The position numbers and the translations under genes are program-made. A stretch of DNA of 64,000 nucleotides from Mariniflexile gromovii. GTDB lineage: Bacteria > Bacteroidota > Bacteroidia > Flavobacteriales > Flavobacteriaceae. Location: positions 62,001 through 126,000 of the forward strand of contig NZ_JAGJCB010000005.1 of NCBI RefSeq assembly GCF_017814435.1, read 5' to 3'. Shown one piece after another: positions 33,342 through 37,150 of this stretch (the stretch's first letter is position 1; every line of letters begins with the position of its first letter). Under the pieces are notes generated by a model. It did not search any database, was not told the origin of the DNA, and saw only the letters and a program-made list of their open reading frames with translations.

Positions 33342-33719
33342 TTAAATAAACCAAGCTTTTTTACTTTTACCAAGCACATTGGAAGCTTCATGAAGCAAGG
33401 CAACAAAATTATCGTGGTCTAAATCTTCAAGTGTTTTTAGTTGAACGGAGCGCACCTGTTTTCTATTATTGTCGTTTTTCAATATAGGAAACTGCTTTTC
33501 CAAAAGAATACCTTGTACAAAAGCCACATCAACATAGTTGGTGCCTTTTAATACATTCAAATAAATCATGGGCTTTTTGTGACAATTATAAAAGGGAAGT
33601 TTATAGCTAAACCGCTCCTCCACTTCTGGTAATGTATTTAAAATCACACTTCGCACATAAAGCATGATGGATTGGTAAGGTTCTTTTTGGTTATAAAAAT
33701 AGTCGTCTACAGGTCTCAC
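33342..33719 (-). CDS. DUF1801 domain protein
   Basis: A 125-residue small soluble protein with the DUF1801 (YdhG-like) pattern: VRSVILNTLPEVEERFSYKLPFYNCHKKPMIYLNV, a beta-strand core and a C-terminal helix. Function is unknown. Its stop is 1 bp from the kdsA stop on the opposite strand. A second, different DUF1801 gene is at 38040-38459. Confidence 0.82.
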   Translation of the reverse strand: MRPVDDYFYNQKEPYQSIMLYVRSVILNTLPEVEERFSYKLPFYNCHKKPMIYLNVLKGTNYVDVAFVQGILLEKQFPILKNDNNRKQVRSVQLKTLEDLDHDNFVALLHEASNVLGKSKKAWFI

Positions 33720-33790
33720 TTTTTATGGGAGTTTTTGTTCATATTCAAAATTAACAAAAATTTACATCGTATTATTCAAATTAATTTATT

Positions 33791-33809
33791 TACTTTGTAA
33801 TTCAAAGTA
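33791..33809. promoter_or_regulatory. 19-bp palindromic operator upstream of the membrane-protein gene
   Basis: TACTTTG-TAATT-CAAAGTA: perfect 7-bp arms with a 5-bp centre, 7 bp before the start codon at 33817. The same arms occur upstream of creD. The left arm resembles a -7 box, so a bound protein would block transcription. Confidence 0.8.
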
Positions 33810-33816
33810 CTTTTAT

Positions 33817-34425
33817 ATGGAATCAAAAGATTATTTAAAAGACCTCAGCGAGATTAAAGATTTAATGAATAAATCGTCGCGGTTTATTTCGCTTAGCGGT
33901 TTGTCTGGGATATTGGCAGGTGTTTATGCTATAATTGGGGCGACTATCGCTTATTGGTTAGTTACAACCTCACAAAGAGGTTATCTTATACTAGACGGTA
34001 AAATCTTTAGAATATGTGTATTTATCTTATTAATGGTTGCGCTTTTTAGTATTGTTACCGCTATCATTTTAACCACAAGAAAAGCCAAAAAAAACGGTGT
34101 TAAAATTTGGGACGCCACTTCTAAGCGCTTAGTTGTTAATTTTTTAATTCCTTTAGTGGTTGGTGGTTTGTATATCTTAATAATTCTAGGACAGGAAAAA
34201 TATGGGCAGACGGGTGGTTTAATGCTCATTTTTTATGGATTGGCCTTAGTTAATGCTTCAAAGTATAGCATAGGCGATATTAGATATTTAGGGTATATTG
34301 AAATAGTGTTAGGGTTATTGGGGGCTTTATATCCTGGTTATGGCTTTTGGATTTGGGTTTTAGGCTTTGGCGTTATGCACATTGTGTACGGCACTTGGAT
34401 GCATTTTAAGTATGATAGGCATTAG
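33817..34425 (+). CDS. Hypothetical inner-membrane protein of the creD locus
   Basis: A 202-residue protein with about six hydrophobic segments (GILAGVYAIIGATIAYWLV; FILLMVALFSIVTAIIL; LVVGGLYILIIL; LMLIFYGLALVNA; IEIVLGLLGALYPGYGFWIWVLGFGVMHIVYG). The N-terminal 25 residues (KDYLKDLSEIKDLMNKSS) are soluble and helical. Function is unknown. The final codons (AGG CAT TAG) belong to a perfect AGGCATT array, so the C-terminal RH and the stop codon are repeat-derived. It shares an operator with creD and probably heads the regulator transcript. Confidence 0.82.
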   Translation: MESKDYLKDLSEIKDLMNKSSRFISLSGLSGILAGVYAIIGATIAYWLVTTSQRGYLILDGKIFRICVFILLMVALFSIVTAIILTTRKAKKNGVKIWDATSKRLVVNFLIPLVVGGLYILIILGQEKYGQTGGLMLIFYGLALVNASKYSIGDIRYLGYIEIVLGLLGALYPGYGFWIWVLGFGVMHIVYGTWMHFKYDRH

Positions 34426-34484
34426 GCATTAGGCATTAGGCATTAGGCATTAGGCATTAGGCATTAGGCATTAGGCATTAGGCA
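34417..34484 (+). repeat. Perfect heptamer array (AGGCATT) x 9.7
   Basis: About nine and a half exact copies in a row with no mismatch, starting inside the last codons of the membrane-protein gene. Exact identity points to recent expansion. On the other strand the unit is AATGCCT, again AAnnCCn. Confidence 0.97.
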
Positions 34485-34492
34485 AAATTAAT

Positions 34493-34552
34493 AACTTTGA
34501 AGCTCTGGAGCTTTGAAACTTTGTAACTTTTAAACTTTTAACTTTTAACTTC
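34493..34552 (+). repeat. Octamer-to-heptamer array (AACTTTGA / AACTTTT)
   Basis: Five octamers (AACTTTGA, AGCTCTGG, AGCTTTGA, AACTTTGT, AACTTTTA) pass into AACTTTT heptamers and end 3 bp before the TTG start of the regulator gene. Confidence 0.85.
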
Positions 34553-34555
34553 GGT

Positions 34556-34849
34556 TTGAGCATCATAAACAACATAAACAAAGTATTCGATCACAGAATT
34601 AGATTGGGCATCATGTCCATACTAATGGTGAATGAGTATGCCGATTTTAATATGCTTAAAGAGCTCCTAGGCGCCACCGATGGCAATTTAGCAAGCCACA
34701 CCAAAGCCTTGGAAACCGCTGAATATATTAGTGTTGAAAAACAGTTTATTGGCAGAAAACCAAATACCCGATACAGCACCACCAAACTAGGCGAATTGGA
34801 ATTCAAAAAGCATATTGACGCCCTCGAAAAATTAATTAACAATCAATAA
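34556..34849 (+). CDS. Winged-helix transcriptional regulator (HTH_34/MarR-ArsR-like)
   Basis: A 97-residue one-domain regulator. The core follows the winged-helix pattern HRIRLGIMSILM ... DFNMLKELLGATDGNLASHTKALETAEYISVEKQFIGRKPNTRYSTTKLGELEFKKHIDAL. The annotated start is TTG at 34556; no ATG occurs before residue 20, and homologues start at about this point, so TTG is taken as the start. The repeat array ends 3 bp upstream, so the native start or ribosome-binding site may have been altered. It sits between a membrane-protein gene and creD, both preceded by the same palindrome, and is therefore the best candidate for the factor that binds it. Confidence 0.82.
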   Translation: MSIINNINKVFDHRIRLGIMSILMVNEYADFNMLKELLGATDGNLASHTKALETAEYISVEKQFIGRKPNTRYSTTKLGELEFKKHIDALEKLINNQ

Positions 34850-34868
34850 TACATTTTTTTTATCATTC

Positions 34869-34887
34869 TACTTTGAAATACAAAGTA
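34869..34887. promoter_or_regulatory. 19-bp palindromic operator upstream of creD
   Basis: TACTTTG-AAATA-CAAAGTA: arms identical to those at 33791-33809, 18 bp before the creD start at 34906. Two copies in the same locus next to a dimeric-type HTH gene strongly suggest a shared operator. Confidence 0.85.
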
Positions 34888-34905
34888 CTTTAAAACAAAG
34901 AAATC

Positions 34906-36282
34906 ATGGAAAACACAAACCCTCAACAAGGAAACAAATTTGGCAATTGGTTAAAAACATCTATCACGGCACGTATGCTCATGGTAGGCTTTTTAGTCAT
35001 CATTTTATTGATACCGCTATCTTTTATTGAAAGTCTAATTCGCGAACGCTCGTTCAGGCAACAAGATGTCGTAAACGAAATAAATGATAAATGGGGAAAC
35101 CATGTATTGGTTTATGGCCCTATTTTAAAACTTCCGTACCATACCTACTCCGAAACAAAAATCTACGATGAAAAAACAAAAACCTATTTAAAGGAAACCC
35201 AGACGCACGTTAATTTCGCTTACATATTTCCTGAAAAATTATCAACCGAGGTTCATGTGAATTCAAAAACATTGAATCGTGGCAACTTCGAATCGGCTGT
35301 ATTCACCACCGATATGACCTTATCAGGATTCTACATTCCAACAGACTTAACTGATAAAGACATCAAACCCGAAGACATTGTTTGGGAAAAAGCAAGCATC
35401 ATCTTGGAAACCTCAAATTTAAAAGGTATTAGAAATGAAGTGGTTTTAAAACTCAACAATAGCAACTACACGTTTCAAACCAACTATAATAATGACGATA
35501 AAAGCATGAATACCCGTTTAGATGTTTTAGAAACCGGTTTCTTAAACCAAACCCACATTAACGGTACCGAAAATGCAAACTTCCAAATAAAAATTTCCTT
35601 CAACGGAAGTAAACAAATCGAATTAATCCCCATTGGGAAAACAACCGATATGTTCATGAAATCCAATTGGGCCGACCCCAGTTTTATTGGCAACTATTTA
35701 CCAAACGATGAAACCAAGGAAATCTCAAAAAACGGATTTAAAGCCGATTGGAAAGTCCTACACATAAACCGAGCCTTTTCGCAACAGCACCTAAACAAAA
35801 TACCCAACCTTAGTGAATTTGCTTTCGGAACCAAGTTCATGGTTATGGTTGATGAATACAAAAAAAGCGAACGCTCAGCCAAATATGGCTTTTTGGTTAT
35901 AGCCCTAACCTTTCTCATTTTCTTTTTAATTCAAACCCTTAGCAAAATAAACATCCATCCGTTTCAGTATTTAATGATTGGATTGGCACTCACCATGTTC
36001 TACACCTTGTTGGTATCCATTTCAGAACACAGCAATTTCTTAAAAGCCTATTTAATAGCAGGAACATCGGTCATCTTACTCATCACCTTATATTCAAAAT
36101 CCATTTTAAAAACACTTAAATTCCCTCTATTTATCGGGCTTTCTCTCACGGCACTTTACACGTTTATCTACGTCATCATTCAGTTAGAAAACTATGCGCT
36201 TTTAGTAGGCAGTATTGGTCTATTCCTAATATTGGCCATCGTTATGTACGTATCCAGAAAAATAGATTGGAATAACGGATAA
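34906..36282 (+). CDS. creD: Cell envelope integrity protein CreD
   Basis: A 458-residue inner-membrane protein of the CreD family. One helix lies near the N-terminus (residues of about 20-42, MLMVGFLVIILLIPLSFIESLI), then a large periplasmic domain with the GPILKLPY motif, and about six helices at the C-terminus (GFLVIALTFLIFFLIQTL and following). Function is not well defined; in other bacteria creD responds to envelope stress and changes antibiotic susceptibility. The palindromic operator and the adjacent HTH gene suggest local regulation. Confidence 0.93.
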   Translation: MENTNPQQGNKFGNWLKTSITARMLMVGFLVIILLIPLSFIESLIRERSFRQQDVVNEINDKWGNHVLVYGPILKLPYHTYSETKIYDEKTKTYLKETQTHVNFAYIFPEKLSTEVHVNSKTLNRGNFESAVFTTDMTLSGFYIPTDLTDKDIKPEDIVWEKASIILETSNLKGIRNEVVLKLNNSNYTFQTNYNNDDKSMNTRLDVLETGFLNQTHINGTENANFQIKISFNGSKQIELIPIGKTTDMFMKSNWADPSFIGNYLPNDETKEISKNGFKADWKVLHINRAFSQQHLNKIPNLSEFAFGTKFMVMVDEYKKSERSAKYGFLVIALTFLIFFLIQTLSKINIHPFQYLMIGLALTMFYTLLVSISEHSNFLKAYLIAGTSVILLITLYSKSILKTLKFPLFIGLSLTALYTFIYVIIQLENYALLVGSIGLFLILAIVMYVSRKIDWNNG

Positions 36283-36301
36283 ATTTATTAGTTAATTATT
36301 T

Positions 36302-36445
36302 GGGCGTTACCCCCGAAGAAAAATCGGGGGTCGCGCTTTCCGTTACAAGTCCTCGCTCCTTCGTCGCTGTGGGCTTTCCACTTCAAATGCGCAGCATTCA
36401 CGATTTCATTAATTTAAAATAGAATGCATGAGTAACCGCTAACGC
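36302..36445 (-). repeat. Structured dispersed element, copy B
   Basis: Read on the minus strand, it begins GCGTTAGCGGT, has a middle block TGTAACGGAAAGCGCGACCCCC and ends TTCGGGGGTAACGCCC. The terminal stem is ACCCCCGA/TTCGGGGGT with a short loop. It is the same family as copies A and C, in the 175-bp gap after creD. Confidence 0.75.
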
Positions 36446-36457
36446 AAAAACCAGCCC

Positions 36458-36763
36458 ATGAACATTTTTATAACAGCAAGCAAAACCATAGCAGCAAGTA
36501 GTTTCATTATTGGAACCATCTTATTTGCCCTCCAATTATTTTTTCGTCATTCTTATATGCTAGTGTATCCTGGAATCATATTTATAATAGTAGCAGTCAT
36601 TTTAAATACAATAGCACTTTTAGGATTATTATTTTATTTAGTAGCAAAGCCAAAAGAAAAACTTGAAATAATAAAAACATGTGGTATGGTGCTTTTAAAC
36701 ATTCCTATCGCCATTGCCTATTTTATCATCCTTATCCATATAGAATTTCCATCAGAATTTTAA
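36458..36763 (+). CDS. Hypothetical small membrane protein
   Basis: A 101-residue protein with three hydrophobic segments (TIAASSFIIGTILFALQLFF; MLVYPGIIFIIVAVILNTIALLGLLFYLV; CGMVLLNIPIAIAYFIILIHI). The spacing and the late KPKEKLEIIKTCG segment give no family I recognise. It is followed by a DUF2809 gene with a 3-bp gap, so the two are an operon pair. Confidence 0.72.
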   Translation: MNIFITASKTIAASSFIIGTILFALQLFFRHSYMLVYPGIIFIIVAVILNTIALLGLLFYLVAKPKEKLEIIKTCGMVLLNIPIAIAYFIILIHIEFPSEF

Positions 36764-36766
36764 TTT

Positions 36767-37150
36767 ATGAAACTTCAATTCAACAAAACATATCTTGTCC
36801 TAGCCTTATTACTTTTCGCCACCGAAGCATGTATAGCCACATTCTTAAAAACGGGATTTATACGGCATACCTTTGGTGATTATTTGGTGGTCATTTTAAT
36901 GTATTGCTTTTTAAAAAGCTTCATTAAAGGCTATCATTTTAAAATAGCCATGAGTGTATTAGCCTTTTCTTATGCTATAGAAGTTTTACAATTGGTTAAT
37001 ATTCTAAAACCGCTAAACCTAGAAAATAGTCATGTAGCAAAACTAATATTGGGTAGCACGTTTCATATTTCAGACTTAGTGGCTTACACCTTAGGAATTG
37101 TAAGTGTTTTAATTGTAGAAATGAGACTTAGTAAAATACTAAATGTTTAA
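36767..37150 (+). CDS. DUF2809 membrane protein
   Basis: A 127-residue protein with four hydrophobic segments and the family pattern FIRHTFGDYLVVILMYCFLKSF ... AFSYAIEVLQLVNILK. DUF2809 proteins are short membrane proteins of unknown function. It is joined to the preceding membrane-protein gene, and its stop overlaps the stop codon of the convergent SDR gene (37147-37150). Confidence 0.82.
   Translation: MKLQFNKTYLVLALLLFATEACIATFLKTGFIRHTFGDYLVVILMYCFLKSFIKGYHFKIAMSVLAFSYAIEVLQLVNILKPLNLENSHVAKLILGSTFHISDLVAYTLGIVSVLIVEMRLSKILNV

Follow-up and report, generated by a model that had tools for sequence, protein, structure and literature searches.

The locus examined here raises the question of which protein reads a pair of palindromes with identical arms, and which genes are thereby placed under its control. 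The palindromes, TACTTTG-N5-CAAAGTA, lie in a window of 64,000 nucleotides from Mariniflexile gromovii, this being the whole stretch of DNA that was analysed. They stand before the gene of a membrane protein and before creD, and a short winged-helix (HTH) gene lies in between. The original prediction held that the two sites define a creD regulon governed by the local HTH protein as repressor. Both palindromes are exact, the membrane gene, the HTH gene and creD run in one direction, and the left arm of operator 1 coincides with a plausible -7 box, as had been anticipated (Table 1).

Table 1. Features of the module in the window (position 1 is the first base of the window).
Feature	Position	Strand	Remarks
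Position of the weak -33 element	33767..33769	+	Reads TCG; 20 bp 5' of the -7 box
Predicted -7 box	33790..33798	+	Inside the left arm of operator 1; TTACTTTG or TACTTTGT
Operator 1 (candidate)	33791..33809	.	TACTTTG-TAATT-CAAAGTA; 7 nt 5' of the ATG at 33817
CTTT extension of operator 1	33810..33813	+	On the gene side only
Membrane gene	33817..34425	+	202 aa; six predicted TM helices; first gene of a presumed operon with the HTH gene
HTH_34 winged-helix protein	34556..34849	+	97 aa; TTG start; presumed repressor
Operator 2 (candidate)	34869..34887	.	TACTTTG-AAATA-CAAAGTA; 18 nt 5' of the creD ATG at 34906
CTTT extension of operator 2	34888..34891	+	On the gene side
creD	34906..36282	+	458 aa inner membrane protein; presumed local second target

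Repeats are also found within the module. A minisatellite at 34416-34484, made up of 9.9 perfect copies of the heptamer TAGGCAT, spans the stop codon of the membrane gene, and one further array of this heptamer was located in the same genome (contig C31:4920-4989). The interval between the membrane gene and the HTH gene holds a degenerate AACTTTGA-type tandem array (34492-34548), several units of which contain the half-site ACTTTG; the scan of the window at up to three mismatches reported no N5 dyad in this array. A T-run at 34855-34861 separates the HTH stop codon from operator 2, and among the best 80 of 487 loci T was found at each of these seven positions in 71-81 of the 81 second sites. 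This run may be a terminator tail, a bend or a part of the promoter.

A scan of the whole 4,275,638-base genome, as had been proposed with the original prediction, returned exactly two exact copies of TACTTTG-N5-CAAAGTA, namely the two beside the HTH gene in the window, against 0.056 copies expected from the base composition of the window. The 16-base signal ACTTTG-N5-CAAAGT-N-CTTT gave two genome matches with no mismatch, none with one and nine with two, and its reversed control gave 16 matches at up to two mismatches. When up to three mismatches were allowed in the palindrome, 10 matches were found in the window versus 8.43 expected from shuffled sequence, which is not above chance; the weight of the argument therefore rests on the exact copies and on the comparison across genomes.

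The protein encoded between the two sites matched the Pfam family HTH_34 (PF13601) with 99.6 bits against a cut-off of 27, over profile positions 1-80 of 80, and it is the sole HTH_34 match in the genome at E <= 0.001. It had been described as being of the HTH_34/MarR-ArsR type; the first half of this assignment stood, and the profile scores do not support the second. The profile of ArsR/SmtB metalloregulators (NF033788) scored 18.9 bits, below its curated cut-off of 55, and no MarR or PadR profile was returned by Pfam, HTH_34 being the only family at E up to 1 in a search in which the HMMER filters drop most matches above E ~0.1. The sole PDB sequence match at E up to 0.01 was PH1061 of Pyrococcus horikoshii (PDB 1UB9; E 8.9e-8, residues 10-95), an archaeal protein that the PDB entry calls a hypothetical protein. 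The structural model consists of helices at residues 13-25, 31-39 and 45-54, strands at 58-65 and 68-75, and a helix at 77-95. For this low-confidence model (mean pLDDT only 64.9), the best Foldseek match was again 1UB9 (E 3.2e-3), and the best VIA match was a MarR chain (Z 9.0, rmsd 2.8 over 90 residues), a comparison by which winged-helix families are not separable. The TTG start is plausible, with Met at this position in seven of the 10 relatives listed. We know of no operator for PH1061.

Conservation of the site was examined in a near set comprising the best 80 of 487 HTH relatives in named genomes, each taken with up to 3 kb per side. A site with at most one mismatch of 14 was present 5' of the membrane gene in 79 of these 80 loci, the remaining one (L080) carrying an AGCTTTG variant there. 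The distance from the site to the ATG of the membrane gene was 7 nt in 67 of the 79 and 6-9 nt in all of them. The gap between the membrane gene and the HTH gene ranged from 2 to 397 nt, with a median of 70 (79 of the best 80 of 487 loci).

Within the family, 149 genomes were divided into 75 carriers, defined by an HTH match of at least 98 bits and at least 54% identity, and 74 non-carriers. Some HTH match at E <= 0.001 was present in 84 genomes, and the nine weaker ones, which include a fragment (G121) and a match interrupted by four stops (G099), were put with the non-carriers; the exact palindrome was found in none of these nine genomes. The exact palindrome occurred in 65/75 carriers versus 2/74 non-carriers (Fisher 1.2e-28, a value that overstates independence because the genomes are related), and the reversed control pattern matched nine family genomes, two of them carriers. 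In the 10 carriers that have no exact copy (L245-L254), at least one site per genome near the HTH gene has the arms ACTTTG and CAAAGT intact, and the two palindromes of non-carriers (L255, L256) are without the CTTT extension. The membrane gene follows the same distribution and was strongly matched in all carriers except G119 (74 of 75); this count omits three weak matches of 24-28% identity (G025, G047, G131). Outside the carriers, the sole strong match to the membrane gene was in G121, where the gene contains stops (G121:C1:1393684-1394387) and the HTH match covers only 37 residues (2-38). To judge from these reading frames, G121 is a case of joint loss or decay of the gene pair.

Extending the comparison to a phylum sample of 296 genomes, we found some HTH match in 179 and none in 117, so the module is widespread and not universal. 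The exact palindrome was present in 43 of the 105 genomes with an HTH match of at least 75 bits versus 1 of the 191 others. The far set consisted of all listed HTH matches of at least 75 bits, namely 104 loci besides that of the window (21 of them from the family of the window), together with 17 weaker, hand-chosen ones. Among the 104, the 16-base signal was present at up to one mismatch in 96 and at up to two in 99, with two or more sites in 77; sites at up to two mismatches totaled 176, versus a mean of 0.3 and a maximum of 2 in Markov controls. No site within two mismatches of 16 was found in the other five loci (L299, L262, L303, L306 and L241). The 17 weaker loci were divided into 10 with a site and seven without, the latter being the second copies L264 and L315 and matches in families f11 and f17. 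Second copies of HTH_34 were examined in four cases, of which three had no site (L244 of G023, L264 of G413 and L315 of G195); the fourth, L311 of G149 (71 bits), had two sites with one mismatch. Overall, sites were present in 24 of the sampled families, and the membrane gene was recognized near the HTH gene in 91 of the 104 far loci. By sequence comparison, the steady core of the module is the HTH gene together with, in most loci, a gene for a six-helix membrane protein, and the second target is exchanged.

The signal that emerges from these alignments is a symmetric dyad, ACTTTG-N5-CAAAGT, with a one-sided CTTT towards the gene. When sites were picked by their arms alone, CTTT after the right-arm A was found in 156/164 near sites and 141/157 far sites, and AAAG 5' of the left arm was found in none of the near or far sites (0/164 near); these counts omit 11 loci of the family of the window (L157-L167). 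The one-sided CTTT is thus conserved far away, and a symmetric dimer does not explain it. Spacer length is strict: 178 sites in the phylum loci have five bases, versus 0 to 5 sites for each other spacer from 0 to 11, and the left arm is no more invariant than the right arm or the 5-base spacer. On the opposite strand of the 104 phylum loci, 42 matches at up to two mismatches were obtained owing to the symmetry of the dyad, whose arms read the same on either strand. The half-site centers are 11 bp apart and therefore lie on the same face of the helix. A second dimer on AAAGTACTTT was considered and dropped by reasoning, as its half-site centers would be 6 bp apart and on opposite faces.

Some loci carry altered arms, the right arm reading AAAAGT or the left arm ACTTTT, as seen in 29/30 loci of family f23 and 3/7 of family f8 (L219, L273, L276); in these, residue 66 in the wing of the HTH protein is not Gly and is mostly Asp. 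In the 91 loci of at least 84 bits with a site, residue 66 was compared with operator bases 7 and 13: canonical sites accompanied 52/53 proteins with Gly, and altered sites 35/38 of the others. This link was spotted by eye and then tested, and in a column scan residues 63 and 8 scored slightly higher. On a tree of 85 loci, from which six without a linked membrane protein had been removed, it comes down to 2 and 3 changes (median sign-test p 0.5), and we rejected it as proof of contact.

The position of operator 1 relative to the predicted promoter bears on how it might work. In Flavobacterium psychrophilum, -7 boxes of the forms TAnnTTTG (sigma-A) and TAnnTTGY (SM5) have been described at -12 to -5, with a median 5' UTR of 24 nt (PMC9723704). 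Our sites have these boxes in common with that study; those are promoter classes, and its main text, with 0 occurrences of 'palindrom', names no palindrome. Among the membrane-gene sites of the best 80 of 487 loci, base 0 is T in 79/79 and base 8 is T or C in 78/79, so the left arm can be read as a -7 box in two registers: in operator 1, TTACTTTG has one mismatch to TAnnTTTG and TACTTTGT fits TAnnTTGY. Either register would put the predicted start at palindrome base 12-13 (~33802-33803), giving a leader of 14-15 nt. Operator 2, read likewise, would give a leader of ~25 nt, close to the published median of 24 (PMC9723704); sites of the operator-2 type fit the -7 consensus less well, with A at position 8 in 67/81 (best 80 of 487 loci). 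The -33 position reads mostly [A/T]TG in relatives, and G was found at -21 in 52/79 membrane-gene sites of the same 80 loci. A -7 box at positions 18-23 (TACTTT) was also considered; far loci vary at position 19 and hardly at all at positions 20-23, a pattern opposite to that of TAnnTTTG, and this box was dropped for that reason. A scan for sigma-70 type promoters was uninformative (8 found versus 14.4 in shuffles).

The reading that we favor, with a probability of roughly 0.77, is that the HTH_34 protein acts as an autorepressor of its own operon and also represses a nearby membrane-related gene, through ACTTTG-N5-CAAAGT. What the comparison across genomes establishes is a fixed position of the site, a fixed spacer, co-occurrence of the site with the HTH gene and a conserved gene pair. 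The HTH_34 protein would bind the site directly, a symmetric dimer being the most likely form. Before the membrane gene, the -7 box would coincide with the left arm, and the predicted start would lie at the edge of the right arm; because the site lies over both box and start, a bound dimer would exclude RNA polymerase. The protein would in this manner control the membrane gene and the HTH gene, presumably one operon, as well as a second unit just downstream, here creD. Overlap of the site with the promoter is the one reason for preferring repression to activation.

Other readings of the same data were weighed against this one. It is unlikely that the HTH protein binds the site and activates, or does both depending on its state: the asymmetric CTTT on the downstream side, conserved in near and far sites, would be expected if orientation to RNA polymerase mattered, but an activator would not usually sit over the predicted -7 box and start, as this site does, and the dyad itself is symmetric. 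We regard as improbable that the palindrome is a promoter element for an alternative sigma factor, with the HTH gene merely one of the genes served. Such an element would be directional, as this one is, and the left arm with its next base, TACTTTG[T/C], fits the SM5 box TAnnTTGY of F. psychrophilum as described in PMC9723704, base 8 conforming at nearly every membrane-gene site of the near set. However, a sigma factor would not need the invariant right arm and 5-base spacer; moreover, the only two exact copies in the genome both lie beside the HTH gene, the element is nearly absent from genomes without the HTH protein, and position 8 is mostly A at second sites.

Were another, unlinked regulator to bind the site, the HTH protein would be a bystander. 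Nothing speaks directly for this, and the co-occurrence of the site with this HTH subfamily over the phylum, beside the subfamily's own gene, makes such a regulator very improbable. Chance palindromes in AT-rich DNA would suit the number of matches seen in the window at up to three mismatches, but the excess of exact copies over expectation and the conservation of position and spacer leave this explanation a negligible probability.

The scope of the proposed regulation proved wider than creD. The gene in the window encodes a CreD protein with a score of 471 bits against PF06123 (cut-off 23) and of 467 against the NCBIfam CreD equivalog (cut-off 275). In the best 80 of 487 loci, the genes after the other 81 near sites were creD in 35 cases, DUF4153 in 26, Coq4-like in 13, MpaB-like in 6 and ferritin-like in appearance in 1, a single representative of each group having supplied its Pfam name. 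Coq4 was matched only weakly (25.8 bits, cut-off 22.9), and no confident Pfam match was found for the ferritin-like gene. Where creD was labeled by script in this set, the distance from site to start was 15-18 nt in 32 of 34 cases. Absence of the palindrome upstream of creD in genomes that carry the same HTH gene would have spoken against the original prediction. Among near relatives, a site with at most one mismatch of 16 was present near the creD start in 36 of 37 named creD loci; the other one, L045, has a ferritin-like gene, preceded by a site of its own, in between. For genomes that lack a close HTH orthologue, three creD genes of the family (L257-L259) were examined, and the stretch around each showed no site.

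Across the 149 family genomes, 48 have creD; 45 of these are carriers, which leaves 30 of the 75 carriers without a creD match. Among the 104 far loci, creD lay near the HTH gene in 24, with a site at its start in 11/24 and none in 13/24; in these 13, mostly another gene takes the second site, and in L223, in which creD is the nearest labeled gene after the HTH gene, just site 1 was found. The name creD regulon was abandoned because of the several other second targets and the 13 far creD loci with no site at the start. Of the repressor-operator system as first proposed, a local HTH protein with a shared operator-like site before two units is borne out by comparison, and the restriction to creD is not.

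Sites away from the HTH gene were surveyed in 19 stretches with exact copies, plus L114. Five genomes of genus g128 have a CTTT-extended site before a C92-type (YaeF/YiiX) amidase gene (L186, L187 and L189-L191; Pfam on L186 only), and such a site precedes a Coq4-like gene in L188-L191; in L189-L191, the Coq4-like gene and a near-site lie further on from the unlinked operator copy of the amidase. Others precede DoxX-like proteins in L114 (at the Pfam cut-off) and L199 (by look), a DUF4153 protein in L201, and look-alike small membrane proteins in L192, L193, L195, L197, L198 and L203, that of L197 having no Pfam match. Several exact sites do not fit this pattern: L196 and L260 are without CTTT, L194 has no start within 150 nt, and a distance of 58-143 nt separates the sites of L200, L202 and L204 from the next start. 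Membrane proteins are frequent among the products of the genes at these sites, which fits an envelope role without proving one; for the window, a link of the module to envelope integrity is likewise putative.

The first gene of the pair encodes a protein that resisted classification. No Pfam family scored above its cut-off for the 202-aa membrane protein, DUF6223 alone appearing with E 0.45, and no PDB sequence matched at E up to 1. The structural model (mean pLDDT 82.4) shows an N-terminal helix and six further helices. No Foldseek match was obtained for it at E <= 0.001, the best having E 0.52, and the best VIA match, with Z 7.6, was a designed helical barrel, an ordinary value for helical bundles; a known fold was therefore dropped. 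Both ends are presumed to be cytoplasmic by the positive-inside rule. With boundaries between cytoplasmic and outer parts set by the analyst, conservation over 86 rows averaged 2.72 bits in the presumed cytoplasmic parts versus 1.47 bits in the outer loops (Mann-Whitney p 1e-6), and the membrane helices were as conserved as the cytoplasmic parts. A conserved cytoplasmic face would suit a partner for a cytoplasmic protein.

The arrangement recalls sdpRI of Bacillus subtilis (PMC1626106, PMC6818787), in which an autorepressor and a polytopic membrane protein are encoded in one operon, as is presumed here. According to a review, SdpI sequesters SdpR at the membrane in response to the toxin SdpC (PMC1626106). 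The present module differs in its gene order, which begins with the membrane gene, in having a separate second target after the pair, and in that sequestration is hypothetical; no toxin gene was recognized in the module. Pfam has an SdpI family. It gave no match to the window protein at E up to 1, and among the 44 relatives of the membrane gene, which yielded 33 weakly matching families, SdpI was absent from the 25 families listed. The conserved cytoplasmic parts, together with the review of SdpI and SdpR (PMC1626106), are the basis of a capture hypothesis that we put forward tentatively and consider doubtful: the membrane protein might sense the state of the inner membrane and, at its conserved cytoplasmic face, capture or release the HTH_34 repressor, the outcome being induction of the pair and of one exchangeable membrane-related gene. 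On the same tentative footing, the operator would double as -7 box and transcription start, and the whole would be a phylum-wide, Gram-negative counterpart of SdpRI with an unrelated membrane protein.

Control of creD is known from Proteobacteria, where CreBC governs its transcription and creD has been linked to envelope integrity in Stenotrophomonas maltophilia (PMC4689548). CreBC is a two-component system, whereas a one-component HTH protein would act here; control of creD would be common to both. Among the six ORFs at 33342-37150, three of which are the module itself, no kinase or response-regulator match was found, and creB and creC are not seen beside creD. Among the papers listed from the open journal literature searched, none appeared to describe this regulon.

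To our knowledge, few Bacteroidota regulons are known down to the operator. Judged by its distribution, the module appears to be a real and old regulator-operator unit, broader than a creD regulon, defined to the base, found in many families of the phylum and having few sites per genome. It ties a nameless membrane protein to creD and to other membrane-related genes of unknown function. It also provides a candidate binding site for a regulator family for which no known operator was found, and with it a way to test which signals act on those genes. Should the membrane protein prove to be the sensor, the pair would constitute a minimal two-protein signaling unit from membrane to DNA.
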